This document shows, one piece after another, positions 1 through 35,108 of a DNA stretch of 64,000 nucleotides. Numbering within the stretch: the stretch's first letter is position 1; the number at the start of each line of letters is the position of its first letter. A program made the translations under genes and the position numbers. The stretch comes from Streptomyces sp. 840.1 (GTDB lineage Bacteria > Actinomycetota > Actinomycetes > Streptomycetales > Streptomycetaceae): assembly GCF_003751445.1 (NCBI RefSeq), contig NZ_RJUU01000001.1, positions 1,679,001-1,743,000 on the forward strand. The letters are read 5' to 3'. Below the pieces are notes generated by a model, which made no database searches, was not told the origin of the DNA, and was given only the letters and a program-made list of their open reading frames with translations.

Positions 1-151
1 CCTCGCCCCGCTCGTCGTCCGGGTCACCGAGCCGCCGTTCCAGCTCGGCGACGCGTGCGACCACCCTGGCTTCCTGGCCGGCCGTGTGGGCTGCGCCCGG
101 GGCGTCGAAGGACACTCCGTTCGCTTCCGAGGCCGAAGTACCGATCAGCAT
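1..151 (-). CDS. Acyl-CoA dehydrogenase, N-terminal fragment cut by the window edge
   Basis: An ATG at 151 follows an RBS-like GAGAGAGGA and lies 11 bp after the stop of the upstream dehydrogenase, so the two are almost certainly co-transcribed. Only about 50 residues are in the window. They include a stretch reading RVAELERRLGDPDDERGE, which closely resembles the start of the neighbouring protein (RVAEELDRFLGDPGDP). This suggests a paralogous ACAD subunit or second copy, perhaps forming a hetero-oligomer. Seen: start, RBS and local similarity. Inferred: family and function. The catalytic domain lies outside the window. Confidence 0.65.
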   Translation of the reverse strand, partial: MLIGTSASEANGVSFDAPGAAHTAGQEARVVARVAELERRLGDPDDERGE

Positions 152-162
152 GGCGTCCTCTC

Positions 163-1941
163 TCAACTCGTGCCGGCAGTTGCGCCGGTGCTTTCCAGCG
201 GGAGCGGTTCCGGCAGCCGCTGGGGCAGCAGCGAGAACAGCTCTCCGGTCCGGCGGCCGGCCCGCAGATGCGCCAGCAGCCCTTCGTACGCCTCGGCGTC
301 CCCGCTGCCCGGCTCTCCGAGCCGTTCGAGGATCCGGCCGAGCGCGGCACGCAGCCACAGTCCGTCCTGCCACAGCGCGGCGGTGCCGCCGCCGCCGGCC
401 GCCGCGCCCGAGCTGTGCAGCCACAGGCCGAGGCAGGCCGCCCCCGCGTAGCAGAGCGTGTAGCGGCGGGCCAGGTCGAAGACCTCCGGCTCCACCTCAC
501 CGGCCGGGCTCTGCCGGCTCTCCATCTCGGCGTGCACCCGGCGCTCCACGGCGACGAGCCGCTCGGCGGACTCGACCGCCCCGCGGAGCGCCGGGTTCTC
601 CCCGGCCCGCCGGCTCAGCTCGGCGACGGAGGCGTCGAGGCCCGCCAGTACGCCGCTGCCGTGGCGGGCGACCAGCGAGAGCCGGGCCGGGTCCAGCGCC
701 GGGACCGGCGCCGACAGGTCGTAGGCCGCCACCGCTCCCGCGCTGTCGCCGGTACCGCGCCGTCTGCCGCGCACCAGCGAACGGAACTGGTTGATAAGGG
801 AGTTGAGGTTGACCAGCGTGTTGCCGTCGAAGAGTCCGACGATCCGGTGGTCGCGCTCGATCTTCTGGAACATCCCGCCCGCGTACACGCCCTTGAGGAA
901 CGCGCGGGCGCCGAGCACCCGGGTCAGGGCGGCGAGCACGGCCTCGGTGCCGCTGGGCAGCAGGTACTTGGTCACGGCCGCGGTGACACTGAGCTCGTCC
1001 GTCTGGGTGTGCACGGCGCGGGCCGCGAACACGGCGAGCGCCTCGTGCAGCAGCACGTCGGCCGCCGCGGTGCTCAGCACCGACCTGGCCTGCGGGAGGT
1101 CGATCAGGTGCCGGCCGTAGAGCTCGCGCTCCTCGGCGAAGTCCACGGCGATCCGCAGCCCGTGGTCGGCGGCGCCCAGGGAGAGCGAGGCGCACATGGT
1201 GCGGGTGAGCTGCAGGGCCTTGAGCACCGTCTCCAGGCCGCCGCCCTCGGTGCCGACCAGGTCCTCCCGGTCCACCCGGGCGCCGTCGAAGGCGATCCCG
1301 GAGATGTCGGCCCCCCGGATGCCGTGCGTGCGGACCTTGGGCAGGTGGCGGTAGCTCCCGGGGCCGAGCTTCCGCTTGTCGACCAGCAGAACGCTGAAGC
1401 CGCGCGGCCCGCCCGCCGGGTCGGTGCGGGTGAGCAGGGAGAACACGCTGCCCCGGGTGGCGTTGTTGATCAGCCACTTCTCGCCGCTGACCAGCCACCC
1501 GTCCGCCTCGACCGCACCCGTCACCTCACCGGCCAGCAGATCGCTGCCGTGGGCCCGTTCGGTGAGCCCGAGCGAGACGGGCACACCGGCCCGGATGTCC
1601 GCGCCGAGCCGCCGCGCCTGTTCCGGCGTACCGGACACCCATACGCACACCCCGCCGAGGTAGGTCTTGCCATGGCCGACGGCCACCGTCAGATCCCGCC
1701 GGGCGACCGTGCGCATGAGCTGCAGGACCTGTTCGTAACTGCGCAGCCGTCCGCCGTGCTCGACCGGCACGTAGTAGTCGGTGAGCCCCCACTCCTCCAG
1801 CTGTCGGCAGATGTCGGCGGGGAACTCCTCCTTCTCGTCCAGCTCCACGCAGCGCGTGTGGGAGAACGGGCGGGCGGGGTCGCCCGGGTCGCCGAGGAAG
1901 CGGTCGAGCTCCTCGGCGACCCGGTAGGCCGGTTGCTCCAT
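163..1941 (-). CDS. Acyl-CoA/acyl-ACP dehydrogenase with C-terminal extension
   Basis: This is a 592-residue flavoprotein of the acyl-CoA dehydrogenase fold. The N-terminal helical domain is at about 1-120, the middle beta domain at about 120-240 (SLGLTERAHGSDL, EKWLINNATRGS), and the FAD-binding helical domain at about 240-400 (MCASLSLGAADHGLRIAVDFAEERELYG). At the position of the usual YEGT catalytic-base motif it reads LFDGNTLVN, so Asp replaces Glu. About 190 further residues follow, longer than the usual 380-400, as in ACADs that work on carrier-bound fatty acids. It starts one base after the stop of the fatty acyl-AMP ligase. The likely job is alpha,beta-desaturation of the acyl chain that ligase activates. 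The exact substrate is unknown. Confidence 0.85.
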   Translation of the reverse strand: MEQPAYRVAEELDRFLGDPGDPARPFSHTRCVELDEKEEFPADICRQLEEWGLTDYYVPVEHGGRLRSYEQVLQLMRTVARRDLTVAVGHGKTYLGGVCVWVSGTPEQARRLGADIRAGVPVSLGLTERAHGSDLLAGEVTGAVEADGWLVSGEKWLINNATRGSVFSLLTRTDPAGGPRGFSVLLVDKRKLGPGSYRHLPKVRTHGIRGADISGIAFDGARVDREDLVGTEGGGLETVLKALQLTRTMCASLSLGAADHGLRIAVDFAEERELYGRHLIDLPQARSVLSTAAADVLLHEALAVFAARAVHTQTDELSVTAAVTKYLLPSGTEAVLAALTRVLGARAFLKGVYAGGMFQKIERDHRIVGLFDGNTLVNLNSLINQFRSLVRGRRRGTGDSAGAVAAYDLSAPVPALDPARLSLVARHGSGVLAGLDASVAELSRRAGENPALRGAVESAERLVAVERRVHAEMESRQSPAGEVEPEVFDLARRYTLCYAGAACLGLWLHSSGAAAGGGGTAALWQDGLWLRAALGRILERLGEPGSGDAEAYEGLLAHLRAGRRTGELFSLLPQRLPEPLPLESTGATAGTS

Positions 1942-1942: not shown

Positions 1943-3733
1943 TCAGACCGCCGCTTCCAGTGGGCGGTCGGTGGCGTCGGCGACGGCCTCCCGGACCGCG
2001 GGCTCCAGCACCTCGTACAGCGGGGTGAGCGCGCCCTGCAGGAAGAGCTTGCGCATCAGGGTGCGCTGGATCTTGCCGCTGGTGGTCTTGCGGATGGTGC
2101 CGGGGCGTACCAGCACCACGTTGCCGGCGGAGACGTTGAACTCCTTGCCGATCAGGCTCTGGGCGCCGGTGGCGACCGCCCGCAGATCGGTGCTGACGGC
2201 GCTGGCCCTGACCTCCTGGACGATGATCAGGTGCTCCCGGTCGGTCTCGACCGAGAACACCGCGCCCGAACCGAAGCCGAGTGAGCCGTCGCTGGACTGG
2301 ACGGCGCGTTCGACGTCCTGCGGGTAGAGGTTGCGGCCGGCGAAGATGACGATCTCCTTGAGCCGGCCGGTGACGTACAGCTGGCCGTCCTCCAGGGCTC
2401 CGAGGTCGCCGGTGCGCAGCCAGCCGCCGTCGTCGCGGTTTCCTTCGGCGTCGGTGATGTGCGCGTCGAAGATCTCCTCGTTGGTCAGCGGGCGCTTCCA
2501 GTACCCGCTCGCGACGCTGTCGCCCTTGACCCAGATCTCGCCGACGCCGCCCTGCGGCTGCTCCAGGAAGGTCTCCGGGTCGACGATCCGCACCTCGAAG
2601 TCCTCGGCGTGCACCACGCCGCTGCTGACCAGGGTCCGGGAGGGTCCGCCCTCCGCCGGGACACCGAGCCGGCCCTGTTCCAGGGCGGCCGGGTCGACGG
2701 CACGGTTCACCGGGCTGAGTCCGAGCGGGGTGCCCGACACGAGCAGGGTGGTCTCCGCCATGCCGTAGCAGGGGAAGAAGGACTCGGCCCGGAAGCCCGT
2801 CGGGGCGAAGCGCTCGGTGAAGGCCCGCACCGTCTCGCGCCGGATCGGCTCCGCCCCGTTGGCGGCGGCCGTCCAGCGGGACAGGTCCAGGGTCCCCAGT
2901 TGCTCGTCGGTGACGCGCCGCACGCACAGGTCGAAGGCGAAGTTGGGTCCGCCGCCGATCGTCACGCCGTAGTCGTCGATCATCTTCAGCCAGCGGTAGG
3001 GCCGCCGGAGGAAGGACGTCGGGGACATCAGGGCCGCCGAACCGCCGATGTAGAGCGGGTGCAGGATGTGCCCGATGAGCCCCATGTCGTGGTAGAAGGG
3101 CAGCCAGCCACCGAAGCGGGACTCGCTGGTGGTGCCGGCCGAGCGCTGGATCGCCGCCTCGTTGGCCAGCAGGTTGCCGTGCGAGACCATGACGCCCTTG
3201 GGGTCGCTGGTCGAGCCGGATGTGTACTGCAGGAACGCCAGGTCCTGCGGGTTCAGCGACGGCTGGACGTAGGCACCCGCGTCGCCGAGCGTCGTGTCGT
3301 CGGTGGCCAGGCACAGGACGTCGTTCATGCCCTCTGCGGCCAGCCAGGCGGATATCTCCGGGGCCTGGGCGGAGTCGGTGAGCACCACCCGCACCTCGGC
3401 GTCCCGCAGGATGCCGGAGACCCGGGCGAAGTGCTGGCCCTGCTCGGTGGGGAGCGTGGCGGGCACGGCGACGGCGCCCGCGTACAGGCACGCGGTGAAC
3501 GCCTTGATGAAGTCGGTGCCCGAGGGGTAGAGAAGCAGCACCTGCCGGCCCGCGGCCCGGTTCTCCTGGAGCAGCGAGGCTATCCGGCGCGCTTCCCGGT
3601 CGAGCCCGGCGTACGTCAGGTGTTCCGGGGCCGAACCCCCGGTGTCGTCCCGCAGGAAGATGAAGGCGTCCTCGGCGCCGAGCGCGGCGGTACGCGTCAG
3701 GACGAGTTCCGTAAAGGTTCGGAAGCTTGTCAA
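1943..3733 (-). CDS. Fatty acyl-AMP ligase (FAAL) 1
   Basis: This 596-residue ANL-family enzyme would activate a fatty acid as acyl-adenylate and pass it to an acyl carrier protein. The P-loop-like motif FLQYTSGSTSDPKGVMVSH is near residue 165. The motifs GWLPFYHDMGLIGH, IGGGPNFAFDLCVRR and CYGMAETTLL are characteristic of FAALs rather than acyl-CoA ligases, and the C-terminal GWLRTGDLG and RTTSGKIQRTLMRK motifs are intact. The start is a TTG preceded by AGGGAA; there is no better in-frame ATG. It is the first gene of a leftward transcript with two ACAD genes. A closely similar paralogue lies at 31483-33270. The cognate ACP is probably one of the two at 24 kb. Confidence 0.93.
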   Translation of the reverse strand: MTSFRTFTELVLTRTAALGAEDAFIFLRDDTGGSAPEHLTYAGLDREARRIASLLQENRAAGRQVLLLYPSGTDFIKAFTACLYAGAVAVPATLPTEQGQHFARVSGILRDAEVRVVLTDSAQAPEISAWLAAEGMNDVLCLATDDTTLGDAGAYVQPSLNPQDLAFLQYTSGSTSDPKGVMVSHGNLLANEAAIQRSAGTTSESRFGGWLPFYHDMGLIGHILHPLYIGGSAALMSPTSFLRRPYRWLKMIDDYGVTIGGGPNFAFDLCVRRVTDEQLGTLDLSRWTAAANGAEPIRRETVRAFTERFAPTGFRAESFFPCYGMAETTLLVSGTPLGLSPVNRAVDPAALEQGRLGVPAEGGPSRTLVSSGVVHAEDFEVRIVDPETFLEQPQGGVGEIWVKGDSVASGYWKRPLTNEEIFDAHITDAEGNRDDGGWLRTGDLGALEDGQLYVTGRLKEIVIFAGRNLYPQDVERAVQSSDGSLGFGSGAVFSVETDREHLIIVQEVRASAVSTDLRAVATGAQSLIGKEFNVSAGNVVLVRPGTIRKTTSGKIQRTLMRKLFLQGALTPLYEVLEPAVREAVADATDRPLEAAV

Positions 3734-3934: not shown

Positions 3935-5866
3935 TCAGCCGGTACCGGACCCGAACGCGGCGTCGAGGGTCACATGGCCGGGAACCTGCGGGAGGACGTC
4001 GAGCGCGTGGCGGAAGACGAGGTGGCCGTCGGCGCTCTCGGACGTGGTGCCGAAGCCGAGCGACGGGAGGAAGTCGCGCACCTTGAGGTTCTTCGCCGTC
4101 GGCAGGTAGGCGCCGTGCACCGCGGGCGCCCCGGTGTCCCTGGCGTGCGCCAGCAGGGCGGCGAGCGCGGCCTGTTCGATGCCCCGGGCGAAGACCCGGC
4201 AGCTGAGGAGGACGTTGTCGATGTGCAGGCCGTCCGGTTCGCGGTGCGCGAACAGGGCCCCCACGACGCCGTTGTCCCCGAAGCGGTCGCGGGCGCGGAC
4301 GGCGAGCACGAGGTGGTCCGGGGAGTCGAGCCGTTCCTGGACGTCGGCCTTCTGCAGCCGTTGGGTGGTCAGGTTGAACTGATTGGTGCGCAGGGTGATC
4401 TGGGCGATCCGGGCGAGCTCGTGGGGCCGTACCGGCGAGAGCTCGACGCGCACGTCCAGTTCCCGCAGGTAGTCGGTCATCGATCCGGCGCTGTCCAGGA
4501 GGTCCCGGCGTCCGGCGTCCGCCCGGTACTGACCGGCCCGGTCCCGGTCGGCGTCGGTCAGCTCGCGCGTGTCGAACCAGCCGTCGGCGAGCAGCCGGCC
4601 GATGTGCAGGGCGGGCTCCTCGTCGAGGCGGACCACGGCGGTGTCGGGCAGGTTCGCGGCGACGAGCCCGCACTCGAAGGGTGAGTCGTCCGCGAAGACC
4701 AGGCTGTCCACGCCCAGGTTGAGCCGCTCCGCGATGGCGCGGATATTGCCGTCCTTGGGCTGCCAGTTGGCGCTGATCGCCACGAAGTCGTCCTCGCGCA
4801 GCCGCATGTCCGGGTGGTCACGCAGTACGTCGATGACGGCGTCCTGGTCGTTCTTGCTGCAGACGGCGAGGAGCACCCCCTGGGAGCCGATCTGCTTGAC
4901 GACCTGCTGGAACGCGCCGAACGCCGCGCCTCGGTAGGTCGTCGCCGCCGCGATGCCGCCGGGGCCGTCGTCGCCCAGGATGCCGTCCCACAGGGTGTTG
5001 TCCAGGTCGACGACCAGCACCTTCTTGGTCCGGCCGCGCAGGGCACGGGCCAGGTGGCCGATCTCGCGGGCGTAGCGGGCCAGCAGCTCCGCACCGAGAT
5101 GCACCCCGGCGTAGGCGGCGAGCCGGCTGTCGCGCACCGGTCCGGACTCCGCGATCAGCGGATCGAGGTCGACCACGTGCACGCGCGGGTGCTCCAGCGC
5201 CAGGCGCAGCAGACCCGCGTTGAACTCACGCCACTTCAGGGACAGTTCGCTGCGCGAACGGTGGTCGACCAGCTGCCGGGTGTGCGCGGTCAGCAGCGGC
5301 AGGGTGTTGAGCACCAGCACCCCGGAGCCGTGGCTCACGTACTGCTCGACGAGTCCGCCGATGAGGCGGAGCTTCGCGTCCAGGGCCTCGGACACATCGC
5401 CCGGCGTCCAGGGGGAGGGCAGTTCGTCGAAGACGATCTGCGCGTCGAGCAGGCACAGCGCGAGGTCGGTGTCCGGCGCGTACAGCGGGCTCCCGGTGTC
5501 GCGCAGATCGCGCAGCCAGGCGTCGTGCTCCCCCGGTACCAGCCGCAGCGGCATACCGTGCCGGGCGAGCTCCGCGGCCAGCGGGGCGCCGAGCGCGTCC
5601 AGGGTGCCGTGGCCGGTCACGGCGGCGGTCAACGGCACCGCACCTGGGTGGAGTTCGCGGATCGCCTCGGGTGCCGTCCTGGCCAGCAGCCCGCCGGCCC
5701 TGGCCAGCCCCTTCCAGCCGTCGTCCGTCTGCGCGATCTCGGCGAGCAGCCCCGGGACCCGGGGGTACTCCGCCGCGATCCGGCCCTCGTCGTGCAGAGC
5801 GCGCAGCCGGGCCGACGCGTCGGCCCGGGTGGTCTCCGTGGGCGTCGGCGCTGTGGGTGCTGTCAC
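3935..5866 (-). CDS. FkbH-like HAD-IIIC glyceryl transferase/phosphatase
   Basis: This 643-residue protein starts at a GTG with a strong AGGAGG 8 bases upstream. Its N-terminal half (about 1-275) resembles the SGNH-like region seen in long FkbH homologues. The HAD core begins at KKVLVVDLDNTLWDG (nucleophile Asp287, acid Asp289) and continues with CSKNDQDAV and FADDSPFE. The C-terminal ~160 residues resemble a GNAT fold. FkbH-type enzymes take 1,3-bisphosphoglycerate and place a glyceryl unit on an ACP, which can become methoxymalonyl, hydroxymalonyl or tetronate precursors. The usual partner 3-hydroxyacyl dehydrogenase and O-methyltransferase (FkbK/FkbG) are not beside it, so its product may be glyceryl-ACP itself, or the family member may have another role. 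It overlaps the hemerythrin gene by 4 bp. Confidence 0.85.
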   Translation of the reverse strand: MTAPTAPTPTETTRADASARLRALHDEGRIAAEYPRVPGLLAEIAQTDDGWKGLARAGGLLARTAPEAIRELHPGAVPLTAAVTGHGTLDALGAPLAAELARHGMPLRLVPGEHDAWLRDLRDTGSPLYAPDTDLALCLLDAQIVFDELPSPWTPGDVSEALDAKLRLIGGLVEQYVSHGSGVLVLNTLPLLTAHTRQLVDHRSRSELSLKWREFNAGLLRLALEHPRVHVVDLDPLIAESGPVRDSRLAAYAGVHLGAELLARYAREIGHLARALRGRTKKVLVVDLDNTLWDGILGDDGPGGIAAATTYRGAAFGAFQQVVKQIGSQGVLLAVCSKNDQDAVIDVLRDHPDMRLREDDFVAISANWQPKDGNIRAIAERLNLGVDSLVFADDSPFECGLVAANLPDTAVVRLDEEPALHIGRLLADGWFDTRELTDADRDRAGQYRADAGRRDLLDSAGSMTDYLRELDVRVELSPVRPHELARIAQITLRTNQFNLTTQRLQKADVQERLDSPDHLVLAVRARDRFGDNGVVGALFAHREPDGLHIDNVLLSCRVFARGIEQAALAALLAHARDTGAPAVHGAYLPTAKNLKVRDFLPSLGFGTTSESADGHLVFRHALDVLPQVPGHVTLDAAFGSGTG

Positions 5867-6591
5867 GGCTTCGTCCTCCTCGCTGTCGCTCCGGCGCGGC
5901 CGGCCGGCCGCGTCCCGTGAAGCCCGGCCCTCGCGCGTCGGTGCAGCCCCTTGCCCGCGACGCGCCACAGCAGCCGCACGGGACCGGGCAGCCGGCCGAG
6001 GAACTCGTCGTAGTGCTCGGGACCCGCGGCGACGGCCATGGCACCGAGCATGTAGATCCGCTTGTCCTTGGGCACGGCGTCCCGGCCGCGCTCGCTCAGC
6101 CGTCCCCACTCCTCGGCGGTGAACCGGCCGGGCACCAGCGGAAGGATGTGCTGCTCCTCGTCCGCGAGGTGTTCGTCCAGGGCCGGCAGGAGTTCGGCGC
6201 ACGCGCGGGCGAGTACGTCGCGCAGGACGGGGTCCGCCGTGTCCCGCCAGCGGGGCAGGACTTCGGCCACCTGCCCGAGGGACCGGGCGATCCGTTCGTG
6301 CTGCCGCTCCATCCGTAGCAGCAGCGCGGGTTCGACCTCCGGGTCCCCTTCCAGTCGGGGCCAGACCAGCTCGTCCTCGGCAAGGTGGTGTTCCTCCAGC
6401 ATCGTGTCGAGTGCTTCGAGGTGGGCCGCCACGATCCTGCTGCGCCCGGTGTCCTCGGCGTCGACCGCCCCCACCAGGGCGGCCGCGGTCCGGTACTCCT
6501 GTTGGAACAGCCGGTGCACGACCACCATCTCGCCGGTGTCCGGCTCGCTCGACCGCCGCTTGGCCGCCATTTCCCTCACCCTGGCCTTCAT
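5863..6591 (-). CDS. Hemerythrin HHE-domain protein
   Basis: This 242-residue protein has the four-helix hemerythrin pattern of iron ligands: His in VVHRLFQQEY, the pair in LEEHHLAEDE, QHERIARS, and LDEHLADEEQHI. Such proteins bind a di-iron centre and may sense or carry oxygen, nitric oxide or iron. Its stop overlaps the start of the FkbH-like gene, so the two are translationally coupled, which is an unusual pairing. The first ATG (6591) has only a weak RBS. The internal ATG at 6570 follows GGTGAGGG and is a plausible alternative start. The C-terminal ~50 residues are basic and low in complexity. Its role in the cluster is unknown. Confidence 0.8.
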   Translation of the reverse strand: MKARVREMAAKRRSSEPDTGEMVVVHRLFQQEYRTAAALVGAVDAEDTGRSRIVAAHLEALDTMLEEHHLAEDELVWPRLEGDPEVEPALLLRMERQHERIARSLGQVAEVLPRWRDTADPVLRDVLARACAELLPALDEHLADEEQHILPLVPGRFTAEEWGRLSERGRDAVPKDKRIYMLGAMAVAAGPEHYDEFLGRLPGPVRLLWRVAGKGLHRRARAGLHGTRPAGRAGATARRTKP

Positions 6592-6772: not shown

Positions 6773-8044
6773 GTGATGACAGCGGCTCTGGAAGCACAGG
6801 TCTGCGTGGTGGGAGGGGGGCCCGCAGGGCTCACCCTCGCCCTCGAACTGGCCCGAAGGTCCGTATCCGTTGTCGTGGTCGAACAGAGCGGCCGGTTCGA
6901 CCGCTCGTTCCGCGGCGAGTCCATATCGCCCGACTCGGTGTGGCTGCTCGAACGCATGGGTCTGCTGGAAGGGCTGCGGGAATCCACCCTGGAGACCCGC
7001 CACATGGAGATCACCGACGGCGGGCGCACCGTCCTGAGCGCGGACTTCTCCGACTTCGACCAGCCCTGCCCGTACCCGATGGAGCTGCCGCAGCCACCGC
7101 TGCTGGAGGCGCTGGCCGAGGCGGGCGGCGCGCTGCCCGGGTTCAAGCTGCTGCGCCGCGCCACCGCCGTATCGCTGCTGCGCGACGGTACGACGGTCTC
7201 CGGGGTCAGGTGCAAGGGGCAGGACGGAGAGTTCGACGTCCGCGCCGCACTGACGGTGGGGGCGGACGGGCGGTTCAGCAAGATCCGCGAGATGTCCGAG
7301 CTGCCGTACCGAAAGGTGCCGCTGGAGCGGGACTTCGTCTGGTTCAAGGTGCGGCGCCCCGACGTCTGGGACGGTCACACCTACCGGGTGCGGATCATCG
7401 AGGACCGGCACGGCCTCTTCATCCCCACAGTGCCCGACCTGGTGCGGGTCGGCTTCAACATCCCCAAGGGCGGGCTGCGGGAGCTGCGGGCGGGAGGCAT
7501 CTCGGGCCTGCACGAGCGGATGGACGAACTGGCCCCGGAGATCTCCGCCGGCGTGCGGGAGTCCGTCACCTCCTGGTCCGACACCTCCATGCTGGACATC
7601 TTCACCACCGTGGTGCCCCGTTGGTCCCGGCCCGGCCTGGTCCTCATCGGTGACGCCGCGCACACCCTGACACCCGTGCTCGGCCAGGGCGTCAACCACG
7701 CGATCACCGACGCCGCGGTACTGGCCCGGCAGGTCGCCGGCGCGTTCACCGGGAACGGCTCCGGCGACACCACCGAGGCCCTGAACCGGGCCACCCTCGA
7801 CTTCCAGCGGGAGCGGGAGGACTCCGTGGCGATGGCCCGCTCCATCCAGCTGCGCCAGGAGAAGGCGTTCGCGCTGTCCGGGCGCATCCCCGGCATGCTC
7901 AGGCGTTCCGTGTACCGGCTCGTCAACTCCAACGGCCGGCTCAAGCGGAAGATCCTCTCCGGCGTGTACTACCCGCTCCAGGAGGCGGACAAGGTCCGTC
8001 CCTTCGAGACGGCTCCCCGGCCGGCGGCTTCGCCCGCCCGATGA
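6773..8044 (+). CDS. FAD-dependent aromatic-hydroxylase-type monooxygenase
   Basis: This 423-residue group A flavoprotein monooxygenase has the Rossmann motif VVGGGPAGLTLALELA near the N-terminus. The second FAD motif, GDAAHTLTPVLGQGVNHAITDA, is near residue 295. These enzymes hydroxylate electron-rich aromatic or quinoid substrates with NAD(P)H and O2. Two starts are adjacent (GTG 6773, ATG 6776) behind GGAGAGGA. It precedes a P450 by 60 bp, presumably in one operon. Because the cluster also has a type III PKS and C-methyltransferase, it could act like SrsC, which oxidises type III PKS alkylresorcinols to quinols. That analogy is inference. Confidence 0.88.
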   Translation: MMTAALEAQVCVVGGGPAGLTLALELARRSVSVVVVEQSGRFDRSFRGESISPDSVWLLERMGLLEGLRESTLETRHMEITDGGRTVLSADFSDFDQPCPYPMELPQPPLLEALAEAGGALPGFKLLRRATAVSLLRDGTTVSGVRCKGQDGEFDVRAALTVGADGRFSKIREMSELPYRKVPLERDFVWFKVRRPDVWDGHTYRVRIIEDRHGLFIPTVPDLVRVGFNIPKGGLRELRAGGISGLHERMDELAPEISAGVRESVTSWSDTSMLDIFTTVVPRWSRPGLVLIGDAAHTLTPVLGQGVNHAITDAAVLARQVAGAFTGNGSGDTTEALNRATLDFQREREDSVAMARSIQLRQEKAFALSGRIPGMLRRSVYRLVNSNGRLKRKILSGVYYPLQEADKVRPFETAPRPAASPAR

Positions 8045-9339: not shown

Positions 9340-9370
9340 AGTGAGCGGCGCCTTGCGGGCGCCGCTCACT
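9340..9370. terminator. Bidirectional hairpin terminator
   Basis: A 13-bp perfect inverted repeat (arms 9340-9352 and 9358-9370, AGTGAGCGGCGCC) with a 5-base loop lies between the P450 and the convergent SRPBCC gene. It overlaps the SRPBCC stop codon. Confidence 0.75.
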
Positions 9371-9977: not shown

Positions 9978-9979
9978 GG

Positions 9980-20746: not shown

Positions 20747-20781
20747 GGTGTCCTTCACAGGTGTGAGTGTCGGTGCCCGGT

Positions 20782-22784: not shown

Positions 22785-22789
22785 CGCGC

Positions 22790-27547: not shown

Positions 27548-28602
27548 GGTGCCTCCGTGTGTCGCGTGCCGTCCTGGGGGAGCCACTGCGGCGCCTCGGT
27601 GATCTCGACCACCGCACAGGTGCAGCTGAACCCGGAGCCGCCGCCGACCAGCAGCACCTTGTCCCCCGGGGACACCTGTCCGGTCTCGACGAGGTGGTTG
27701 AGACCGGCGGCCTGGTCACCGGCGCCGAGGTGGCCGGCCCGGCGTGCGAAGTCCCAGCTGGACTTGGCGAGCGGGATGCCGAGCAGCGAGTCGACCTGCC
27801 AGTCCATCCGGCTGCGCCCGCTGGCCGGGACCACCACGCGTGCGATGGATTCCATGTCGGTGTCGGCGTCCGCGAGAGCCCGGCCCACCACGTCCCGCAC
27901 GACGGCCGCGAGGCGCTCGGTCGCCGACCGGAAGCTCCCGGTGTTCTTGATGAAGTACTCGACCCGGCCGGGAAGATCGAGCGGTTCGGCGGTCGGGTGG
28001 GGCACGAATCCCGCACCCCGGACCACGGCTTCGAGGGAGTTGTCGGCGCCGGCGGCCGTCGAGAGCAGCCGGGCGAAGCCTCCCCGGCGCGAGAGCAGCA
28101 GGGCGCTCGCCCCGTCGCCGTAGACGAATCCGGGCTCGCTGCTCCACCGCTGGATCACCGGCTCGCCGAAGCGGTCGGCGGTGGTGACCACGGCGGCAGC
28201 CGTGTCCGGGCCCGACGCCACGTGCCTGGCGGCGACTTCGAGCGCGGCGAGGCCCGCGTTGCACTCCTGGCGCAGCCCGAAGGCCGGGATGTGCCGGCCG
28301 AGGGCCTGCCCGGCGATGTAGGAGGCGGCCGGCCACATCTCCACGCCCTGGAACCAGATGCTCGCGTGCACGAGCAGCTCGATGTCCTCGACGTCGACGC
28401 CGGACCGCTTGAGCGCGGTGGTCGCCGCGTGCACGGCCATATCCGGCGGTGCCATGTCATCGGGGGCGACCCGGACCTCGATCAGGTCGTCGGCGGCGCA
28501 CTGCTCGGGGTCGTACCGGCCCGCCTCCACCGCCGAGCGGGCGGTGACCGGCCCTGGCAGCCAGACTCCGGCACCCGCCACATGAACGCTTTCCCAGCGC
28601 AT
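27544..28602 (-). CDS. KASIII-fold acyltransferase-like protein (CerJ/DpsC type)
   Basis: This 352-residue thiolase-fold protein keeps the nucleophile Cys114 (RQECNAG) but lacks the ketosynthase His and Asn. The usual VPHQAN reads VPASGR, and the GNT motif reads GHLGAGD. The His291-Asp296 pair in GHLGAGD matches the Cys/Ser-His-Asp triad recalled for acyltransferase-type KASIIIs such as CerJ, ChlB3 and DpsC. It therefore more likely moves an acyl group (ester, amide or thioester transfer) than performs decarboxylative condensation. The ATG is behind GGAGGA and is the first gene of the long leftward operon. Confidence 0.88.
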   Translation of the reverse strand: MRWESVHVAGAGVWLPGPVTARSAVEAGRYDPEQCAADDLIEVRVAPDDMAPPDMAVHAATTALKRSGVDVEDIELLVHASIWFQGVEMWPAASYIAGQALGRHIPAFGLRQECNAGLAALEVAARHVASGPDTAAAVVTTADRFGEPVIQRWSSEPGFVYGDGASALLLSRRGGFARLLSTAAGADNSLEAVVRGAGFVPHPTAEPLDLPGRVEYFIKNTGSFRSATERLAAVVRDVVGRALADADTDMESIARVVVPASGRSRMDWQVDSLLGIPLAKSSWDFARRAGHLGAGDQAAGLNHLVETGQVSPGDKVLLVGGGSGFSCTCAVVEITEAPQWLPQDGTRHTEAP

Positions 28603-28844: not shown

Positions 28845-30350
28845 ATGCGGGAGTTGCGTACGGACAGGGGCTCGGCCGGCCCGGACCCGCGGCGTTGGCC
28901 GGTGCTCGGGATCCTCTCGCTCGCCCTCTTCGTGATCATCCTCAACAACGGCCTGCTCCATGTGGCGCTGCCCAGCCTGATGCGGGACCTGCACGCCGGA
29001 ATCGGCCTGACGCAGTGGATCGTCGACGGCTACGCGCTGGTGTTCGCGGCGACGCTGCTGACCGCGGGCACCCTGTCCGACCGGTACGGCCGCAAGCGGG
29101 CCACGCTGTTCGGCGTGGCGCTCTTCGGGGCCGGATCACTGGTGGCACTGGCCGCGGACGGTGCCGGGCAGCTCATCGCGGCACGGGCGGTGATGGGGGT
29201 GGCCGCGGCGTTCGTCATGCCGGGCACGCTGTCGATCCTCGTCGACGTCTTCCCCGAGGAGGAACGGCCGAGGGCCATCGCCGTGTGGGGCAGCACCTCC
29301 GCGCTGGGCGTCGCCGCGGGCCCGGTCGTCGGCGGGGCACTCGTCCAGCACTTCTGGTGGGGCTCGGTCTTCCTGGTCAACCTGCTGCCGGTGGCCGCGG
29401 TGCTCGTCGCCGGAGCCGTCCTGCTGCCGGAGTCCGCGGCGCCGGTGCCCCGCCCGGCCGATCCGCTGGGCGCGGTCCTGGGCTCGGCCGGCATGGTGGG
29501 CCTCGTGTACGGCGCCATCCACGCGGCGGACCGGGGCTGGACGTCCGCGACCGTGCTCGCCTCGTTCGGCGCGGCCGGGGTGGCGGGGGCGCTCTTCGTG
29601 GCCTGGGAGCGGCGGCACCCGTATCCGATGGTGGACTTCGTCCTGCTGCGCAGACCCGCGTTCCTGGGGGCGAGCGTGGGCAACATGCTGCTCTTCCTGG
29701 GGCTCGCCGGCACCCTCTTCGTGCTGACCCAGTACCTGCAGTTCGCCCTCGGCTACGGGCCGTTGCGGGCCGGTCTCGCCGTCGCGCCGCTGGCTCTCGC
29801 CGTCGGGCTCGGCTCGGCCGCCGCGCCCTGGCTGGCCCGCCGTGCCGGGCCGCGCGGTGGTGTGGCGGGCGGTCTGGCGGTCACCGCGACCGGCATCTGG
29901 ACGCTCGGGACGGTGCCCGAGGGCTACCCGGGCGTGCTGTCCGGGCTCTGCCTGTGCGGGATCGGAGTCGGCCTGGCGCTCGCGCCGGCGACGGACACCG
30001 TGATGGGCCTCGTACCGCCGGAGCGCTCGGGCAACGCGGCGGCGCTCAACGACACCATGCAGGAGCTGGGCAACGCCCTCGGCGTGGCCGTGGTCGGCAC
30101 CGTCCTCGCCCACGGATACAGCACGGCTGCGGGCGCCGCACCCCTCTCGGAACGGACCGGGCACCTCTTCGAGCAGGCGGCGTCCGACGGTTTCCGGGTG
30201 GCGGCCGCCCTGGTCGCCGCCGGAGCCGTGCTCAGCGGCCTGCTGCTGCCCGGCCCCGCGCCCACCGTTCTGAGCGAGCCGGATCCGGGCAAGGATGTGG
30301 AGGATCACCGCCCGCCCGGCGCCGACTCAGCCCGCCAACGAACCGCCTGA
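28845..30350 (+). CDS. MFS drug exporter (DHA2, 14-TM type)
   Basis: This 501-residue integral membrane transporter has the first helix LGILSLALFVIILNNGLLHVALPSL, followed by TQWIVDGYALVFAATLLTAGTLSDRYGRKR (motif A) and motif C GPVVGGALVQHFWWGSVF. Its length and hydrophobic profile fit 14 helices. Proton-driven efflux of the cluster product is the likely role. The ATG is behind AAGGGAAGGA. It is transcribed away from the biosynthetic operon and leads a small operon with an SRPBCC protein and a YrdB-like membrane protein. Confidence 0.93.
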   Translation: MRELRTDRGSAGPDPRRWPVLGILSLALFVIILNNGLLHVALPSLMRDLHAGIGLTQWIVDGYALVFAATLLTAGTLSDRYGRKRATLFGVALFGAGSLVALAADGAGQLIAARAVMGVAAAFVMPGTLSILVDVFPEEERPRAIAVWGSTSALGVAAGPVVGGALVQHFWWGSVFLVNLLPVAAVLVAGAVLLPESAAPVPRPADPLGAVLGSAGMVGLVYGAIHAADRGWTSATVLASFGAAGVAGALFVAWERRHPYPMVDFVLLRRPAFLGASVGNMLLFLGLAGTLFVLTQYLQFALGYGPLRAGLAVAPLALAVGLGSAAAPWLARRAGPRGGVAGGLAVTATGIWTLGTVPEGYPGVLSGLCLCGIGVGLALAPATDTVMGLVPPERSGNAAALNDTMQELGNALGVAVVGTVLAHGYSTAAGAAPLSERTGHLFEQAASDGFRVAAALVAAGAVLSGLLLPGPAPTVLSEPDPGKDVEDHRPPGADSARQRTA

Positions 30351-30482: not shown

Positions 30483-31013
30483 ATGTCTGTCGCATCGCGT
30501 TCATTACTCAGCCGCGCCCTGTACGTGGGACCACCGCTGGCGACCCTGCAGGAGCAGTACGCCAAGGGCGGCATCATCGACGACAACGCCCCGGTCCTCG
30601 CCTCCAGCAGCGTGCGGATCGCGGCCCCGGCCGACCGGGTGTGGCAACTCCTGCACGACTTGCCCGACTGGCCGTCCTGGGTGCCGGGTGTGTCGTACGT
30701 ACGCCAGTCCCCCGGCGGCCTGGCCCCCGGCGGGCGGTTCACCTGGAAGCTCAACGGCATCACCATCAAGTCCACCCTCGCCGTGGTCGAACCGGAGCGG
30801 GAGCTGTGCTGGACGGGCGTCCTGGCGGGCACCCGCGCGGTGCACCGCTTCCGGCTCACCGAGGATGCGCGGGGCCACACCGAGGTGGTCTCCGAGGAGT
30901 CCATCGGCGGCCCGCTGATCGCCCTCTACTTCCCCAGTTCCAAACTGCGCAAGGTACTTGAGGGCTGGCTGGGCGCGCTCAAGTCCACGGCAGAGACGGA
31001 GACGGCCCGATGA
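30483..31013 (+). CDS. SRPBCC-family protein
   Basis: This 176-residue protein has an N-terminal ~45-residue extension, then an SRPBCC domain with SSVRIAAPADRVWQLLHDLPDWPSWVPGV and LNGITIKSTLAVVEPERELCWTG. It is of the CoxG/Aha1-like ligand-binding type. It overlaps the YrdB-like gene by 4 bp. It may bind the hydrophobic metabolite or act as a cyclase. It is the third SRPBCC protein of the cluster and is linked here to export genes. Confidence 0.8.
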   Translation: MSVASRSLLSRALYVGPPLATLQEQYAKGGIIDDNAPVLASSSVRIAAPADRVWQLLHDLPDWPSWVPGVSYVRQSPGGLAPGGRFTWKLNGITIKSTLAVVEPERELCWTGVLAGTRAVHRFRLTEDARGHTEVVSEESIGGPLIALYFPSSKLRKVLEGWLGALKSTAETETAR

Positions 31014-31393
31014 ACACGCTCGCGTTCGCCAACAACGACGGCATGCTCGCCGTCCGCTTCCTCCTCGAACTGACCGCGCTGGTCTGCTTCGCCATCTGGG
31101 CCTGGCGCAAGACCCCGTCGCCCTGGCGCTGGGTGACGGTGGTGGTCCTGCCGGTGCTGATCGGCTGGGCGTGGGGCGCGTTCGCCGTCTCGGACGACCC
31201 CTCGCGCTCGGGCGAGACAGACTTCGAGACCCCGGGCCCGCTGCGGCTGCTCCTCGAATTCGCGGTCCTCTTCGGCGCGGTGGCCGCGCTCTACCACGCC
31301 GGGTTCCGCCGGGCCGCGAAGTGGCTGCTGGCCATCATGGTCCTCTACCAGATCCTCGCGTACGACCGGATCGGCTGGCTGCTCAGCCACTGA
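31010..31393 (+). CDS. YrdB-family (DUF2568) small membrane protein
   Basis: This 127-residue protein has four predicted membrane helices: VRFLLELTALVCFAIWAW, WVTVVVLPVLIGWAWGAFAV, LRLLLEFAVLFGAVAALYHAGF and WLLAIMVLYQILAYDRI. The pattern matches YrdB, a widespread family of unknown function in Bacillus and actinomycetes. It is translationally coupled to the SRPBCC gene upstream and ends before a strong hairpin. A role next to the exporter is guessed only from position. Confidence 0.8.
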   Translation: MNTLAFANNDGMLAVRFLLELTALVCFAIWAWRKTPSPWRWVTVVVLPVLIGWAWGAFAVSDDPSRSGETDFETPGPLRLLLEFAVLFGAVAALYHAGFRRAAKWLLAIMVLYQILAYDRIGWLLSH

Positions 31394-31482: not shown

Positions 31483-33270
31483 TCAGGAGACTCCGACCGG
31501 GGCGCCCTTCACCAGCTCCTCCACGGCCGGCTCGACGACGGCCAGCAGGGGTTCGAGCCGCCCCTCCAGGAACAGCTTCCGCATCAGGGTCCGCTGGACC
31601 TTTCCGCTGGTGGTGCGCCGTACCGTCCCGGCGGCGACCAGCAGCACGTTGCCCACCGGCACACCGGCCTCCTCCGAGACCGAGCGCTGCACCCCGTCCA
31701 GCAGGGCCTGGTGGTGCGCCGCCTCCGTGTCCGGTCCGCCGGCGGCGCCCCTGACCTCCAGGACGGCCACCAGCCGTTCGCGCACGTCTCCGCCGGGCCG
31801 CACGGCGAACACCGCGCCCGTGCCCAGCGAGGGGTGCGCCGCGCGGGCTGCGGTCTCCACGTCGTGCGGGTAGATGTTCCGGCCGTTGATCACGACCATC
31901 TCCTTGAGCCTGCCCGTCACGTAGAGCTCACCGCCGCTGAGGGCACCGAGGTCCCCGGTGCGCAGCCAGCCGTCCGTCACCGCCCCGTCCGCGCCGGTGA
32001 GCCGCGCCCCGAAGGCCTCGGCGGTCGCCCCGGGGCGGGACCAGTAGCCGGTCGCCACGCTCTCCCCGCGCACCCAGATCTCGCCGACCCCGTCCTGCCC
32101 GAGGTCCCGCAGGGTGGCGGGGTCGGCGATCCGCACCTCGAAGTCCTCGGCCCGCACCACACCGCTGCTGACCAGCGTACGAGTGGCCCCGCCCGGCACG
32201 GGCCCGGCGAGCTGCCCGGTCTCCAGGGCGCAGGTGTCGACGGTGCGGGTGACGGCCGGGCGCCCGAGCGGGGTGCCCGACACCAGCAGCGTCGTCTCCG
32301 CCATTCCGTAACAGGGGAAGAAGGTCTCGGGCCGGAAGCCCGCCGGGGCGAAGCGTCTCGCGAAGGCGTCGATGGTCTCCGCCCGTACCGGCTCCGCCCC
32401 GTTGCACGCCTGCACCCAGCGGGAGAGATCGAGCGAGGACAGCTCGGTGTCCTTCACCCGGCGTACGCACATGTCGTACCCGAAGTTGGGACCGCCCCCG
32501 ATCGTGACCCCGTGGTCGCCGATCATCTCCAGCCAGCGCACCGGGCGGCGCAGGAACGTCTCCGGGGCCATCAGCGCGGCCCTTGCTCCGAGCCAGAGCG
32601 GGTGCAGCACGTGCCCGATGAGCCCCATGTCGTGGAACAGCGGAAGCCAGCTGCCCAGGCAGGAGTCGGCGTCGGAGCCCAGGGAGCGCTGGATCGCGGC
32701 CTCGTTGGCCATCAGGTTGCGGTGCGAGACCATCACTCCCTTGGGCTCGCTCGTCGACCCCGAGGTGTACTGGAGGAACGCCAGGCCGTCGAGTTCCGGT
32801 TCGGGCTCCCGCCAGTGCGCGGCGTCTCCCACCGGTCCCCCGTCCGTGGCCACGCACGGGACGGCGTCCGGGCTGTCGCCCACCAGCCAGGACTCGACGG
32901 CCGGAGCGTGCTCGCGGGTCGTGAGCACCGCCCCGACCCGCGCGTCGGCGGCGATGCGCGACAGCCGCTGGAACTGCCGCTCTCCGGCGGGGAGCGGGGC
33001 CGGAACGGCGACGGCGCCGGCGTACTGGCAGCCGAGGAAGGCCGCGACGAACGGCAGGCCCGACGGGTACAGCAACAGGACCTGCCGGCCCGCCAGTCCG
33101 CGCTCCTGAAGCCAGGAGGCGATGTCCTTGGCCTGTGCGTCGAGCTCCGCGTAGGTCAGCCGCTCCACCCAGCGTTCCGAGTCCGTCTCGTGCACGAAGG
33201 CGAACGCCTCCGCCGTGCCCCGTGCCTGTGCCCTGGCCAGCACGCGCTGGGAAAATGTCTCTTGGCTCAT
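31483..33270 (-). CDS. Fatty acyl-AMP ligase (FAAL) 2
   Basis: This 595-residue paralogue of FAAL 1 keeps the same motifs, FLQYTSGSTSEPKGVMVSH, LPLFHDMGLIGHVLHPL, IGGGPNFGYDMCVRR, CYGMAETTLLVSGTPLG and RRTTSGKVQRTLMRK. It differs mainly in the N-terminal 150 residues and the surface of the C-domain. Two closely related FAALs in one cluster suggest that two different fatty acids, or two carrier proteins, are served. GGAGAG precedes the ATG. It follows the thioesterase by 28 bp on the SARP-thioesterase-FAAL transcript. Confidence 0.93.
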   Translation of the reverse strand: MSQETFSQRVLARAQARGTAEAFAFVHETDSERWVERLTYAELDAQAKDIASWLQERGLAGRQVLLLYPSGLPFVAAFLGCQYAGAVAVPAPLPAGERQFQRLSRIAADARVGAVLTTREHAPAVESWLVGDSPDAVPCVATDGGPVGDAAHWREPEPELDGLAFLQYTSGSTSEPKGVMVSHRNLMANEAAIQRSLGSDADSCLGSWLPLFHDMGLIGHVLHPLWLGARAALMAPETFLRRPVRWLEMIGDHGVTIGGGPNFGYDMCVRRVKDTELSSLDLSRWVQACNGAEPVRAETIDAFARRFAPAGFRPETFFPCYGMAETTLLVSGTPLGRPAVTRTVDTCALETGQLAGPVPGGATRTLVSSGVVRAEDFEVRIADPATLRDLGQDGVGEIWVRGESVATGYWSRPGATAEAFGARLTGADGAVTDGWLRTGDLGALSGGELYVTGRLKEMVVINGRNIYPHDVETAARAAHPSLGTGAVFAVRPGGDVRERLVAVLEVRGAAGGPDTEAAHHQALLDGVQRSVSEEAGVPVGNVLLVAAGTVRRTTSGKVQRTLMRKLFLEGRLEPLLAVVEPAVEELVKGAPVGVS

Positions 33271-33298
33271 CGTCGTCTCTCCACTCCTGAGCACTGCT

Positions 33299-34096
33299 TC
33301 AGACCGGCAGGGACCCCGCGAGTACCGGGGCTTGGGCATAGCGACGCAGCAGGGCGGCGAGTTCGTGCAGGAAGGTGTCCTCGTGGGCGCGGATGAAGAA
33401 GTGCCCGCCGGGCATCTCCCGCACCTCGCAGCCACGCCCCGCGTGCCGCCTCCAGGCCACCACCTCGGGTACGGTCACCAGCCGGTCCCTGCCTCCGACG
33501 AACAAGTGCAGGGGCACCTTCACGGGTTCGGCGGCCGGCGTCACCGAGGAGGCGCACAGCAGCAGGTCGTCCCGGGCCACGGGCAGCAGCGCCGACAGGA
33601 ACTCCGGGTGCTTCAGAATCACCCGGGGTATCCCGCCCAGCGCCGCCAGGCCGCTCACCAGCTCCTCGTCGCTCGCGTGGGGGTTCGCGATCGTGGGTGC
33701 GGGCAGATGGGGCGCGCGGTAGGAGCTGAGCACCAGGCCGAGCGGGAGCGGGGCACCGCGCCGCTGGCGGCGGACGGTCAGCCGGTAGGCGATGAGCGCC
33801 CCCATGCTGTGGCCGTAGAGCACATACGGCTGCCGCAGTTCCTCGTCGAGCTGCTCGTCCAGGTCCTCGACGAGTGCGTCGAGATCGGTGAACCTGGGCT
33901 CGTTGATGCGGCCTTCACGTCCGGGGAGCTGCACCGGCAGCACACGCGCACCGGCTCCGTGCTCGTCGAGTCCGCGCTGCCAGCGCCGGTACGCCGATGC
34001 CCCGCCGCCCGCGTACGGGAAGCAGAACAGCCGCACGCCGGCTCCGGTCGGAGCGTCCGTCGGTAACTGGGGCGTCTGGGAAAGGTATCGCGTCAT
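33299..34096 (-). CDS. Type II thioesterase
   Basis: This 265-residue alpha/beta hydrolase of the GrsT/TEII family starts RLFCFPYAGGGASAYRRWQ, has the nucleophile elbow YGHSMGAL (Ser97) and the catalytic His in MPGGHFFI. TEIIs clear stalled or wrong acyl groups from carrier proteins. Because the cluster has no modular synthase with its own TE, this enzyme could also release the final carrier-bound product. The ATG is behind GGAGCAGA. It lies 205 bp downstream of the SARP stop. Confidence 0.93.
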   Translation of the reverse strand: MTRYLSQTPQLPTDAPTGAGVRLFCFPYAGGGASAYRRWQRGLDEHGAGARVLPVQLPGREGRINEPRFTDLDALVEDLDEQLDEELRQPYVLYGHSMGALIAYRLTVRRQRRGAPLPLGLVLSSYRAPHLPAPTIANPHASDEELVSGLAALGGIPRVILKHPEFLSALLPVARDDLLLCASSVTPAAEPVKVPLHLFVGGRDRLVTVPEVVAWRRHAGRGCEVREMPGGHFFIRAHEDTFLHELAALLRRYAQAPVLAGSLPV

Positions 34097-34316
34097 TCTG
34101 CTCCGCCTCGGGTTCGTCCGGCGACTGTGTGCCGGCCGGGCCCGGCCGCACGACGCGGTCGACTGCGGCCGTCGGAGCGGGCCGCACCCGCCCGGCCCTG
34201 GTGAACGGGTCCGGGCGGCGCGCCTGCCCGCCCGGCAGCACACCTTTCGGCCATCGGTGGAGCGGTACCCGGCCGACACGCATCGAGGGTGCGGGCGACC
34301 GCTAAAAGACGGCCAA
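34097..34316. promoter_or_regulatory. Upstream region of the thioesterase/FAAL 2 operon with TTTAGC element at 34301-34316
   Basis: The 205 bp between the SARP stop and the thioesterase start contain no gene. On the minus strand GCCGTCTTTTAGCGG ends the SARP gene; its TAG is the stop codon. It matches the element at 6712 except at two positions. Overlap with coding sequence makes coincidence possible. Confidence 0.35.
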
Positions 34317-35108
34317 ATCGTAGGCGGGAGAGGCGAGGGAGGGGTCGTCGGCGAGAATGGCGTGATGCAGCCGCTGGAGCCGCTGCGAGGGCTCGATGCC
34401 GAGCTCCTGCACGAACGACGCGCGCACCTTGCGGAAGACCTCCAGTGCCTGCCAGGACCGCCCGCAGCGGCAGAGCGTCAGGATCAGCTGGGCGTGCAGG
34501 TTCTCCTGAAGCGGGTAGCGGGTGGTGAGCACGGTGAGTTCGCTGACCAGCTCCGCGTGCCGGCCCAGCCGCAGGTCCGCCGCGATCCGGCTCTCCAGCG
34601 CACCCCGGCGCACCTCGTCCAGGCGTCTCACCTCGGTCTCCAGCACCGGCCCGGTCCGTACGTCGGCGAGCGCGGGGCCGCGCCACACCGTCAGCGCCTT
34701 CACCAGGAGGCGGGCGGCGAGCGCGACATCGTCCTCGGCCAGAGCCCGCTGCCCGCGCAGGGCGAGCCGCTCGAACTCCCTGGCGTCCACGTCGACGTCG
34801 GCCTCGGGCGGGTCCAGGATGTAGCCGGTGTGGCTGCGGATGAGCACCTCTTTCCCCTCGGGTCCGCCGACCGGTTCGAACGCCGCGGAGAGTCCGTGCC
34901 GCAGTTGCTTCACATAGGTCTGCACCACACCCGAGGGCCGCCCAGGAGGAGCTCCGTCCCACAGCTCCTCCGCCATGGCGGCCATGCTCACGTGACGTCC
35001 GAGGTTGGCCGCCAGTAAGGCCAGCACCTGCCTCGGCTTCGCCGCGCTGGGCACCACGGACGTGCCGTTGACGGTCACGACCAGCGGTCCGAGGACACCG
35101 ATCACCAT
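34302..35108 (-). CDS. SARP-family transcriptional activator
   Basis: This 268-residue protein has an N-terminal OmpR-type winged helix (MVIGVLGPLVVTVNGTSVVPSAAKPRQVLALLAANLGRHV, about 1-95). A bacterial transcriptional activation domain follows (about 100-250; LVKALTVWRGPALADV, LRLGRHAELVSELTVL, LCRCGRSWQALEVFRKVRASFVQELGIEPS). This two-domain length is the classical RedD/ActII-ORF4 size. SARPs recruit RNA polymerase to promoters with heptamer repeats and are the usual pathway-specific switches of Streptomyces clusters. It marks the right side of the gene cluster and probably activates its operons. Confidence 0.95.
   Translation of the reverse strand: MVIGVLGPLVVTVNGTSVVPSAAKPRQVLALLAANLGRHVSMAAMAEELWDGAPPGRPSGVVQTYVKQLRHGLSAAFEPVGGPEGKEVLIRSHTGYILDPPEADVDVDAREFERLALRGQRALAEDDVALAARLLVKALTVWRGPALADVRTGPVLETEVRRLDEVRRGALESRIAADLRLGRHAELVSELTVLTTRYPLQENLHAQLILTLCRCGRSWQALEVFRKVRASFVQELGIEPSQRLQRLHHAILADDPSLASPAYDLAVF

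Follow-up and report, generated by a model that had tools for sequence, protein, structure and literature searches.

The window analyzed here, a 64,000-nucleotide stretch of the Streptomyces sp. 840.1 genome (contig NZ_RJUU01000001.1, positions 1,679,001 to 1,743,000), contains the greater, right-hand share of a tetronate gene cluster into which two further pathways were taken up. The original prediction had described bases 1-35108 as a cluster that joins fatty acyl-AMP ligases (FAALs), free acyl carrier proteins (ACPs), a decarboxylase and a type III polyketide synthase (PKS), without a modular synthase. The genes that it listed are borne out by our gene calls and domain scans, and the absence of a modular synthase holds for the window itself; it fails for the cluster, which has a type I PKS upstream of base 1. 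That type III PKS and beta-aminoacyl blocks have been inserted into a tetronate cluster is strongly supported. We consider its best reading to be a fatty-acyl tetronate pathway extended by a FAAL-fed type III PKS aromatic and, optionally, by a beta-aminoacyl group. The individual enzymes are all of known kinds; the novelty lies in their combination. A search of open-licence PMC papers returned neither the same combination of genes nor a known metabolite that could be matched to the cluster.

Genes in the window were called with a codon-usage model and then scanned against Pfam and NCBIfam. Coordinates are positions in the window, negative values being upstream of window base 1 on the same contig, and cluster genes lie on the minus strand unless marked (+). 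Comparisons drew on a genus sample of 392 genomes and a class sample of 394 that overlaps it. We refer to the tetronate genes as block A, to an ACP, the type III PKS and their tailoring genes as block B, and to an aspartate-type ligase, a decarboxylase, an ACP and a CerJ-type acyltransferase as block C.

Architecture of the cluster

Block A includes an FkbH-type glyceryl-ACP synthase (3935..5866; TIGR01686, 295 bits against a cut-off of 146.65), a FabH-like ketosynthase (-6068..-5034; 404 bits to 5by7) with an adjoining stand-alone ACP (-6330..-6082), an E2-type acyltransferase of the AbyA4/Agg4 kind (-7151..-6327; PF00198, 68.7 bits, with weak PDB matches) and an AbyA5-like hydrolase (-9151..-8072; 307 bits to AbyA5). 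An FkbH, a FabH with its ACP, an E2-type acyltransferase and an AbyA5/Agg5-type hydrolase are the genes by which a 5-methylene-3-acyl-tetronate pathway is recognized; such an A1-A5 set and its roles are described for the abyssomicins and agglomerin in excerpts of PMC5819245 and PMC4979870. The assignment of block A as a full gene set for a 5-methylene-3-acyl-tetronate is well supported.

The type I PKS of the cluster (-5037..-1969; 1022 residues) has the motifs of a ketosynthase (KS; DTACSSS), an acyltransferase (AT; GHSVGE and HAFH) and an ACP (LGFDS). The HAFH motif in an AT is a sign of malonyl specificity. Beside this KS-AT-ACP protein are another ACP (-1969..-1691; upstream gene call and Pfam scan) and two proteins resembling acyl-CoA dehydrogenases (ACADs), at -1633..151 (594 residues; window bases 1-151 are its 3' end) and 163..1941 (592 residues), followed by FAAL1 (1943..3733), which was assigned by library scans and a FAAL tree. 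Block A is completed by a phosphopantetheinyl transferase (PPTase; -7986..-7108), an alpha/beta hydrolase (-10340..-9327), a flavin adenine dinucleotide (FAD)-dependent oxygenase (6875..8044, +), a cytochrome P450 (8105..9325, +) and a thioesterase (33299..34036). A 60-residue open reading frame (ORF) between the two hydrolases (-9330..-9148) has no Pfam match; it is found at 50-64% identity in six other clusters that combine blocks A and B (hereafter "A+B") and at 50% in three clusters with block A alone ("A-only").

These genes bear on what the cluster was first thought to make: a phenolic or pyrone lipid, aminated and methylated and possibly bearing a short amino-acyl unit, formed without a modular synthase or a tetronate, with FkbH as one of several additions. 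FkbH is no loose addition, because a complete tetronate cassette and a type I PKS module are present, mostly to the left of the window; it is the expected glyceryl-ACP enzyme of the tetronate. The annotation of blocks B and C does fit the lipid. Against it, the KS-AT-ACP gene and the tetronate cassette stand in the same minus-strand run as FkbH and FAAL1, and they are kept in all eight Streptomyces A+B clusters and in that of an Actinokineospora. As an account of the whole cluster this version is very improbable and already refuted; it survives as a description of blocks B and C.

Base 1 is not the left edge of the cluster, contrary to what had been proposed; the cluster runs upstream to about -14.2 kb, or to -17.6 kb if the korA-korB-ferredoxin genes are counted. 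Its right edge had been placed well: the gene at 34302..35108, which encodes a Streptomyces antibiotic regulatory protein (SARP), is matched in the stretches of other clusters, and none of the genes called at 35452-39723 was matched in the stretches examined.

Blocks B and C lie within a 24-kb insert (9326-33298) that separates the block A P450 from the block A thioesterase and SARP genes. For comparison we took the FabH contexts of 19 genomes without a type III PKS above 43% identity, 13 of them extended by up to 20 kb. The P450 and thioesterase/SARP genes are side by side in four of the 13 extended clusters (G172, G237, G344 and G003); the three genes fall there within about 4 kb, versus the 24 kb that part P450 and thioesterase in the window.

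The type III PKS and beta-aminoacyl blocks

The genes from 28530 to 14785 form a single co-directional run, in which one gap measures 124 bp and all other neighbors overlap or are at most 50 bp apart. It includes the type III PKS (19158..20261), which exceeds the cut-off for both Pfam halves and has the triad C158-H291-N324; this Cys-His-Asn triad is kept in all 19 aligned sequences. The 102-residue product of 23998..24306 has no Pfam match. The notion that it is an unknown protein was rejected on two grounds that identify it as the ACP of block B: a G-x-D-S motif, invariant in nine of nine aligned sequences, and a structure model (mean pLDDT, the predicted local distance difference test, 81.8) that places Ser43 at the start of a helix spanning residues 43-57.

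Around these two genes are a class III aminotransferase of the GSAM/mycosubtilin-AT type (16700..18196), a flavin amine-oxidase-like oxidoreductase (15432..16703), a UbiG-type O-methyltransferase (20782..21588; TIGR01983, 179 bits against a cut-off of 103), a second S-adenosylmethionine-dependent methyltransferase (18231..19109), an SRPBCC cyclase-like protein (20258..20758; below the Pfam cut-off) and an NADPH-dependent flavin mononucleotide (FMN) reductase (14785..15387). Two ACAD-fold proteins (21588..24001) have PF08028 as their best Pfam match and also match the NCBIfam FadE16 model, below its cut-off; they may be two-component flavin monooxygenases, since the FMN reductase gene is in the same run. 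FAAL2 (31483..33270) is a relative of tetronate-cluster FAALs by the FAAL tree. The presence of FAALs together with free ACPs, proposed originally, is confirmed, and a type III PKS accompanied by an aminotransferase, methyltransferases and oxygenases suggests, in keeping with that proposal, an aminated, methylated aromatic lipid. A second type III PKS is encoded elsewhere in the genome (contig C2, 1121346-1122296; PF00195, 73 bits; 40% identity to the window enzyme).

Block C consists of an ACP (24431..24694), a BtrK-type pyridoxal phosphate-dependent decarboxylase (24691..26001; 176 bits to BtrK), a VinN-type aspartate/3-methylaspartate-ACP ligase (25991..27547; 453 bits to VinN) and a CerJ/ChlB3-type acyltransferase of the beta-ketoacyl-ACP synthase III (KASIII) fold (27544..28530; triad C90-H267-D272). 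These predicted assignments are well supported. The ligase keeps D230, K330 and R331 of VinN and has Tyr and Thr in place of F231 and S299 (numbering and roles from a portion of PMC11253843). The loading and decarboxylation of an amino acid on an ACP, as first proposed, is thus probable, the ligase being VinN-like and the decarboxylase BtrK-like. A glutamate mutase gene elsewhere in the genome (PF06368, 282 bits) bears on whether the substrate is aspartate or 3-methylaspartate. A VinN-type ligase, a VinO-type decarboxylase and a stand-alone ACP together are the mark of a vicenistatin-type starter. In vicenistatin-type pathways the VinJ peptidase is among the enzymes that follow. VinM and VinK likewise act after decarboxylation, according to part of PMC11284099. 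No counterpart of VinM (a second ligase), VinK (a transferase) or VinJ and no macrolactam PKS is apparent among the Pfam-scanned cluster genes, which were not compared directly with VinM, VinK and VinJ.

The KASIII-like enzyme had been put forward as the one that joins the amino-acyl unit. Its best match is CerJ (282 bits), with ChlB3 at 196 bits, and it aligns with the Cys-His-Asp triad described for both in part of PMC9573744. Because it groups with CerJ and ChlB3 and retains the triad, acyl transfer is likelier than formation of a carbon-carbon bond. A role as a bond-forming FabH is unlikely, CerJ being the top match and the H-x4-D motif and Cys being kept.

Distribution and assembly of the blocks

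The gene set is not unique to this genome. Seven other Streptomyces and one Actinokineospora carry most of it, and for this reason we regard it as more than a chance assemblage. The eight Streptomyces with A+B clusters are the present strain, G244 (S. yaanensis by protein identity), G136, G302, S. flaveus, S. hiroshimensis, S. indicus and S. longispororuber, the cluster of the last being split over two contigs. In the Actinokineospora (G626) both blocks are on one contig, and the G626 type III PKS shares 99% identity with its Actinokineospora spheciospongiae counterpart. Contig C4 of G626 ends 1.8 kb beyond a CerJ-type gene (52%), and close to the end of contig C16 are genes for a ligase (58%), a decarboxylase (53%) and an ACP (52%), along with two of SARP type (36-38%). 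Given these positions near contig ends, block C is probably part of the Actinokineospora cluster too. A VinN-type ligase is absent (E <= 1e-70) from the whole genomes of the three Streptomyces that have an A+B cluster lacking block C and from that of S. atriruber. S. indicus and S. longispororuber are among these three, whereas S. flaveus has the block.

In the genus sample, FabH matches at E <= 1e-80 occur in 66 of 392 genomes, 23 of which (this one included) reach at least 73% identity. The type III PKS is found at 58% identity or more in only five, again with this one, and the next best stands at 43%. Four genomes have both at these thresholds, a co-occurrence with p = 4.4e-5; this figure ignores relatedness and is given little weight. 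Among the 394 genomes of the class sample (E <= 1e-100), the type III PKS was found, besides this genome, only in G626. Of 8000 candidates scored in a protein search, 687 were relatives of the enzyme at E <= 1e-60, and the best 120 of the 687 include relatives at 57-66% in several genera of actinobacteria, in one myxobacterium and in metagenomes. Kibdelosporangium philippinense was considered as a further member and rejected: its type III PKS (51%) and FabH-like gene (54%) are 25 kb apart, the large PKS-like genes between and beside them are of another set, and the locus otherwise shows only weak FAAL, PKS and MMPL similarity.

All 19 A-only contexts have block A to varying extent, G300 and G217 only its core, and lack block B. 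No AbyA5-like gene was seen in G172, G237, G344, G003 or G028, although their stretches covered the E2-type and PPTase genes. The reverse situation is that of S. atriruber (G081, whose type III PKS is 100% identical to the protein recorded for that species), in which block B stands with a FAAL of its own, a further ligase, an ACP, an MMPL exporter and a SARP, without block A, next to what we take from the sequence to be gltB/gltD.

Within the sample only three features are limited to A+B clusters. The major facilitator superfamily (MFS) efflux transporter (28902..30350, +) has a counterpart at 57-82% in all eight others (nine of nine with this one), similarity of at most 40% in A-only stretches and none in S. 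atriruber. A pair encoding an amidohydrolase_2 protein and a PaaD/SufT-like protein (13218..14704, +) is present in seven of nine A+B clusters and absent from all 13 of the extended A-only clusters and from S. atriruber. The hemerythrin-domain gene (5863..6570) occurs in 8/8 Streptomyces A+B clusters, in 0/13 extended A-only clusters and not in Actinokineospora. The stretches examined of G136 and S. indicus had no MMPL, amidohydrolase or TetR genes, and those of S. longispororuber no FAAL2.

Phylogeny speaks to how the blocks met. In the KS-AT-ACP tree the eight Streptomyces A+B clusters fall into a single clade (100/99) adjoining A-only clusters; the Actinokineospora branch is long and separate. 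In the FAAL tree, FAAL1 of A+B clusters is close to A-only FAALs, and FAAL2 forms one clade (seven sequences, 100/100) among tetronate-cluster FAALs, separate from the FAALs that accompany block B in S. atriruber and Actinokineospora. In these two organisms block B's own FAAL is found beside the aminotransferase; the corresponding place in the window is empty. Because the P450 and thioesterase genes adjoin in four A-only clusters and FAAL2 clusters with tetronate FAALs, we infer that blocks B and C were inserted into a block A cluster and that the block B FAAL was replaced afterwards.

The provenance of the FAALs also bears on a linear scheme, in which the type III PKS product would be an acid that a FAAL activates and the KS-AT-ACP protein extends, so that the aromatic ring would end the tetronate acyl chain. 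The cluster does have a single malonyl extension module, a single tetronate FabH and, at the edge of the insert, a tetronate-type FAAL2 adjoining the thioesterase. FAAL1 is nevertheless close to the FAALs of A-only clusters, which have no such aromatic acid, and the ACAD pair suits an alkyl chain; we think this scheme unlikely.

Proposed pathway

In block A, FAAL1 would place a fatty acid on an ACP, where the two ACADs probably desaturate it, and the KS-AT-ACP protein would add one malonyl unit without reduction. FkbH would provide glyceryl-ACP, FabH would couple this with the acyl chain to give a 3-acyl-5-hydroxymethyl-tetronate, and the E2-type enzyme and AbyA5-like hydrolase would acetylate and then eliminate, leaving a 5-methylene tetronate. 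In block B, FAAL2 may load a second fatty acid onto the ACP at 23998-24306; the type III PKS may then extend and cyclize the ACP-fed chain to a resorcinol-type ring, which the flavin oxygenases, the UbiG-type O-methyltransferase, the second methyltransferase and the aminotransferase could turn into a (hydro)quinone or aminophenol lipid bearing amino and methoxy groups. In block C, the VinN-like ligase would load L-aspartate or 3-methylaspartate, the decarboxylase would give beta-alanyl- or 3-aminoisobutyryl-ACP, and the CerJ-type acyltransferase would move the beta-aminoacyl unit to an amine or hydroxyl. At a guess, the products of A and B might be joined if, for example, the aminophenol adds to the methylene tetronate, and the amidohydrolase pair is a candidate for the linking enzyme.

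That the three blocks make one conjugate of a tetronate, a type III PKS aromatic and a beta-aminoacyl group is a proposal to which we give equal chances of being right or wrong. In favor of a single product are the inserted position of blocks B and C and its conservation, together with the shared exporter and the replaced FAAL. A more detailed version has one molecule built by three carrier-protein chemistries, giving a tetronate, an amino-arene and a beta-aminoacyl group attached through the KASIII fold, and adds that in the lineage of the window the PKS block lost its own FAAL and came to be fed by the tetronate-type one; we hold this version possible, with the balance tilting somewhat against it.

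Several observations count against a single conjugate. Tetronate clusters without block B occur in many Streptomyces, and the S. atriruber genome has no FabH match at E <= 1e-80; neither block, then, needs the other. Block C, present in five of the eight Streptomyces A+B clusters, is missing from three. No enzyme clearly suited to linking is in evidence: the FAD oxygenase, P450 and thioesterase are also in eight of the 13 extended A-only clusters, and among the A+B-limited genes (transporter, hemerythrin protein and amidohydrolase pair) none is an obvious linker. The FabH tree has no A+B clade and implies four changes, only one of which is forced by well-supported branches. Finally, the type III PKS scores 177 bits on the DpgA model, short of the cut-off of 425, its best solved relative is the generic match Pks18 (148 bits), and the sequence does not tell which starter it takes, which ring it forms or how many condensations it carries out.

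Two separate products are a serious rival. Here block A would make a methylene acyl-tetronate and block B, with block C, a separate aminated phenolic lipid; the two would be co-regulated through the SARP/AfsA genes and perhaps act together, but would never be covalently joined. Consistent with this scenario, both blocks exist apart, the cluster has two exporters (MMPL and MFS) and two SARPs, and an obvious linking enzyme is wanting. Opposed to it are the position of block B inside block A rather than beside it, the persistence of the association in Streptomyces and Actinokineospora despite different gene orders, the substitution of a tetronate-type FAAL for block B's own, and the restriction of the amidohydrolase pair and MFS exporter to A+B clusters. 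We judge that two products will probably prove the wrong account, while leaving them a substantial share of the likelihood.

The cluster shows pathway assembly, with one complete pathway inserted inside another, and free-standing and fused forms can be compared because both exist in living strains. Two enzyme uses are suggested: in one a dedicated FAAL and ACP would feed a type III PKS, and in the other a CerJ-type KASIII would act on a VinN/VinO-type beta-aminoacyl-ACP. The occurrence of the cluster in the culture-collection strains S. flaveus JCM 3035, S. hiroshimensis JCM 4586 and S. indicus CGMCC 4.5727 makes its product directly testable.

Regulators, transporters and accessory genes

Besides the SARP at the right edge, a large SARP (-13048..-10412, +) is encoded beside an AfsA-type hotdog protein (-14177..-13110, +; PF03756), which may point to a butyrolactone-type signal proper to the cluster. 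The insert also carries genes for SRPBCC-fold proteins, one with a TetR regulator (9366..10612) and one with a DUF2568 protein (30525..31393, +). The MMPL exporter gene (10859..13072) has counterparts near block B in S. atriruber and Actinokineospora. An MMPL gene is also within the stretch examined at seven of nine Streptomyces loci with a more distant type III PKS (36-40% identity), and such exporters therefore seem to accompany this kind of PKS.

To the left lie korA, korB and a ferredoxin gene (-17582..-14334, +); korB or ferredoxin is also present in 10 of the 19 A-only stretches. This genome has a second korA (contig C1, 1389219-1391066), as do five of six block A genomes picked for having korA at the cluster. 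Among four genomes that lack block A, three carry a single korA and the fourth shows two partial matches. In this genome and in G344, G236 and G103 the paired copies share runs of 100% DNA identity, which look like gene conversion; in G136 the copies have no such runs (84%). The ferredoxin stands only at the cluster copy of korA in the loci compared. The kor genes may supply electrons or represent a duplicated target for self-protection.

Comparison with known systems

The closest counterparts of block A are the fatty-acyl tetronates RK-682 and agglomerin and the AbyA/AbmA1-A5 set of abyssomicin, with which it shares FkbH, a stand-alone ACP, FabH, an E2-type acyltransferase and an AbyA5-type hydrolase (excerpts of PMC4979870 and PMC5819245). 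It differs in that the chain would arrive through a FAAL, an ACAD pair and one KS-AT-ACP protein, a difference that may not hold in full for RK-682. Type III PKS and beta-aminoacyl blocks are not mentioned for these systems in the same excerpts. The bacterial type III PKS lipids (alkylresorcinols, alkylpyrones and DpgA-like products) have in common with block B the chalcone-synthase fold, the C-H-N triad and an adjoining UbiG-type methyltransferase and oxygenases, whereas the enzyme here is accompanied by an ACP and a FAAL of its own, by an aminotransferase and by an amine-oxidase-like partner, and falls far below the DpgA cut-off.

Block C resembles the VinN-VinL-VinO system of vicenistatin and fluvirucin in its ligase (D230, K330 and R331), its BtrK/VinO-type decarboxylase and its stand-alone ACP; in contrast to that system, a CerJ-type acyltransferase adjoins the ligase and no macrolactam PKS is seen in the cluster. 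This acyltransferase has the Cys-His-Asp triad of CerJ and ChlB3, but its donor is probably a beta-aminoacyl-ACP instead of a malonyl or 6-methylsalicyl group. Finally, the FAAL-ACAD-ACAD-ACP set of block A recurs in the same order in rotihibin (RthH-I-J-K) and in ramoplanin, and part of PMC8552735 proposes that the rotihibin set loads and desaturates a fatty acid; there the cassette feeds a nonribosomal peptide synthetase, whereas here it would feed a PKS module.

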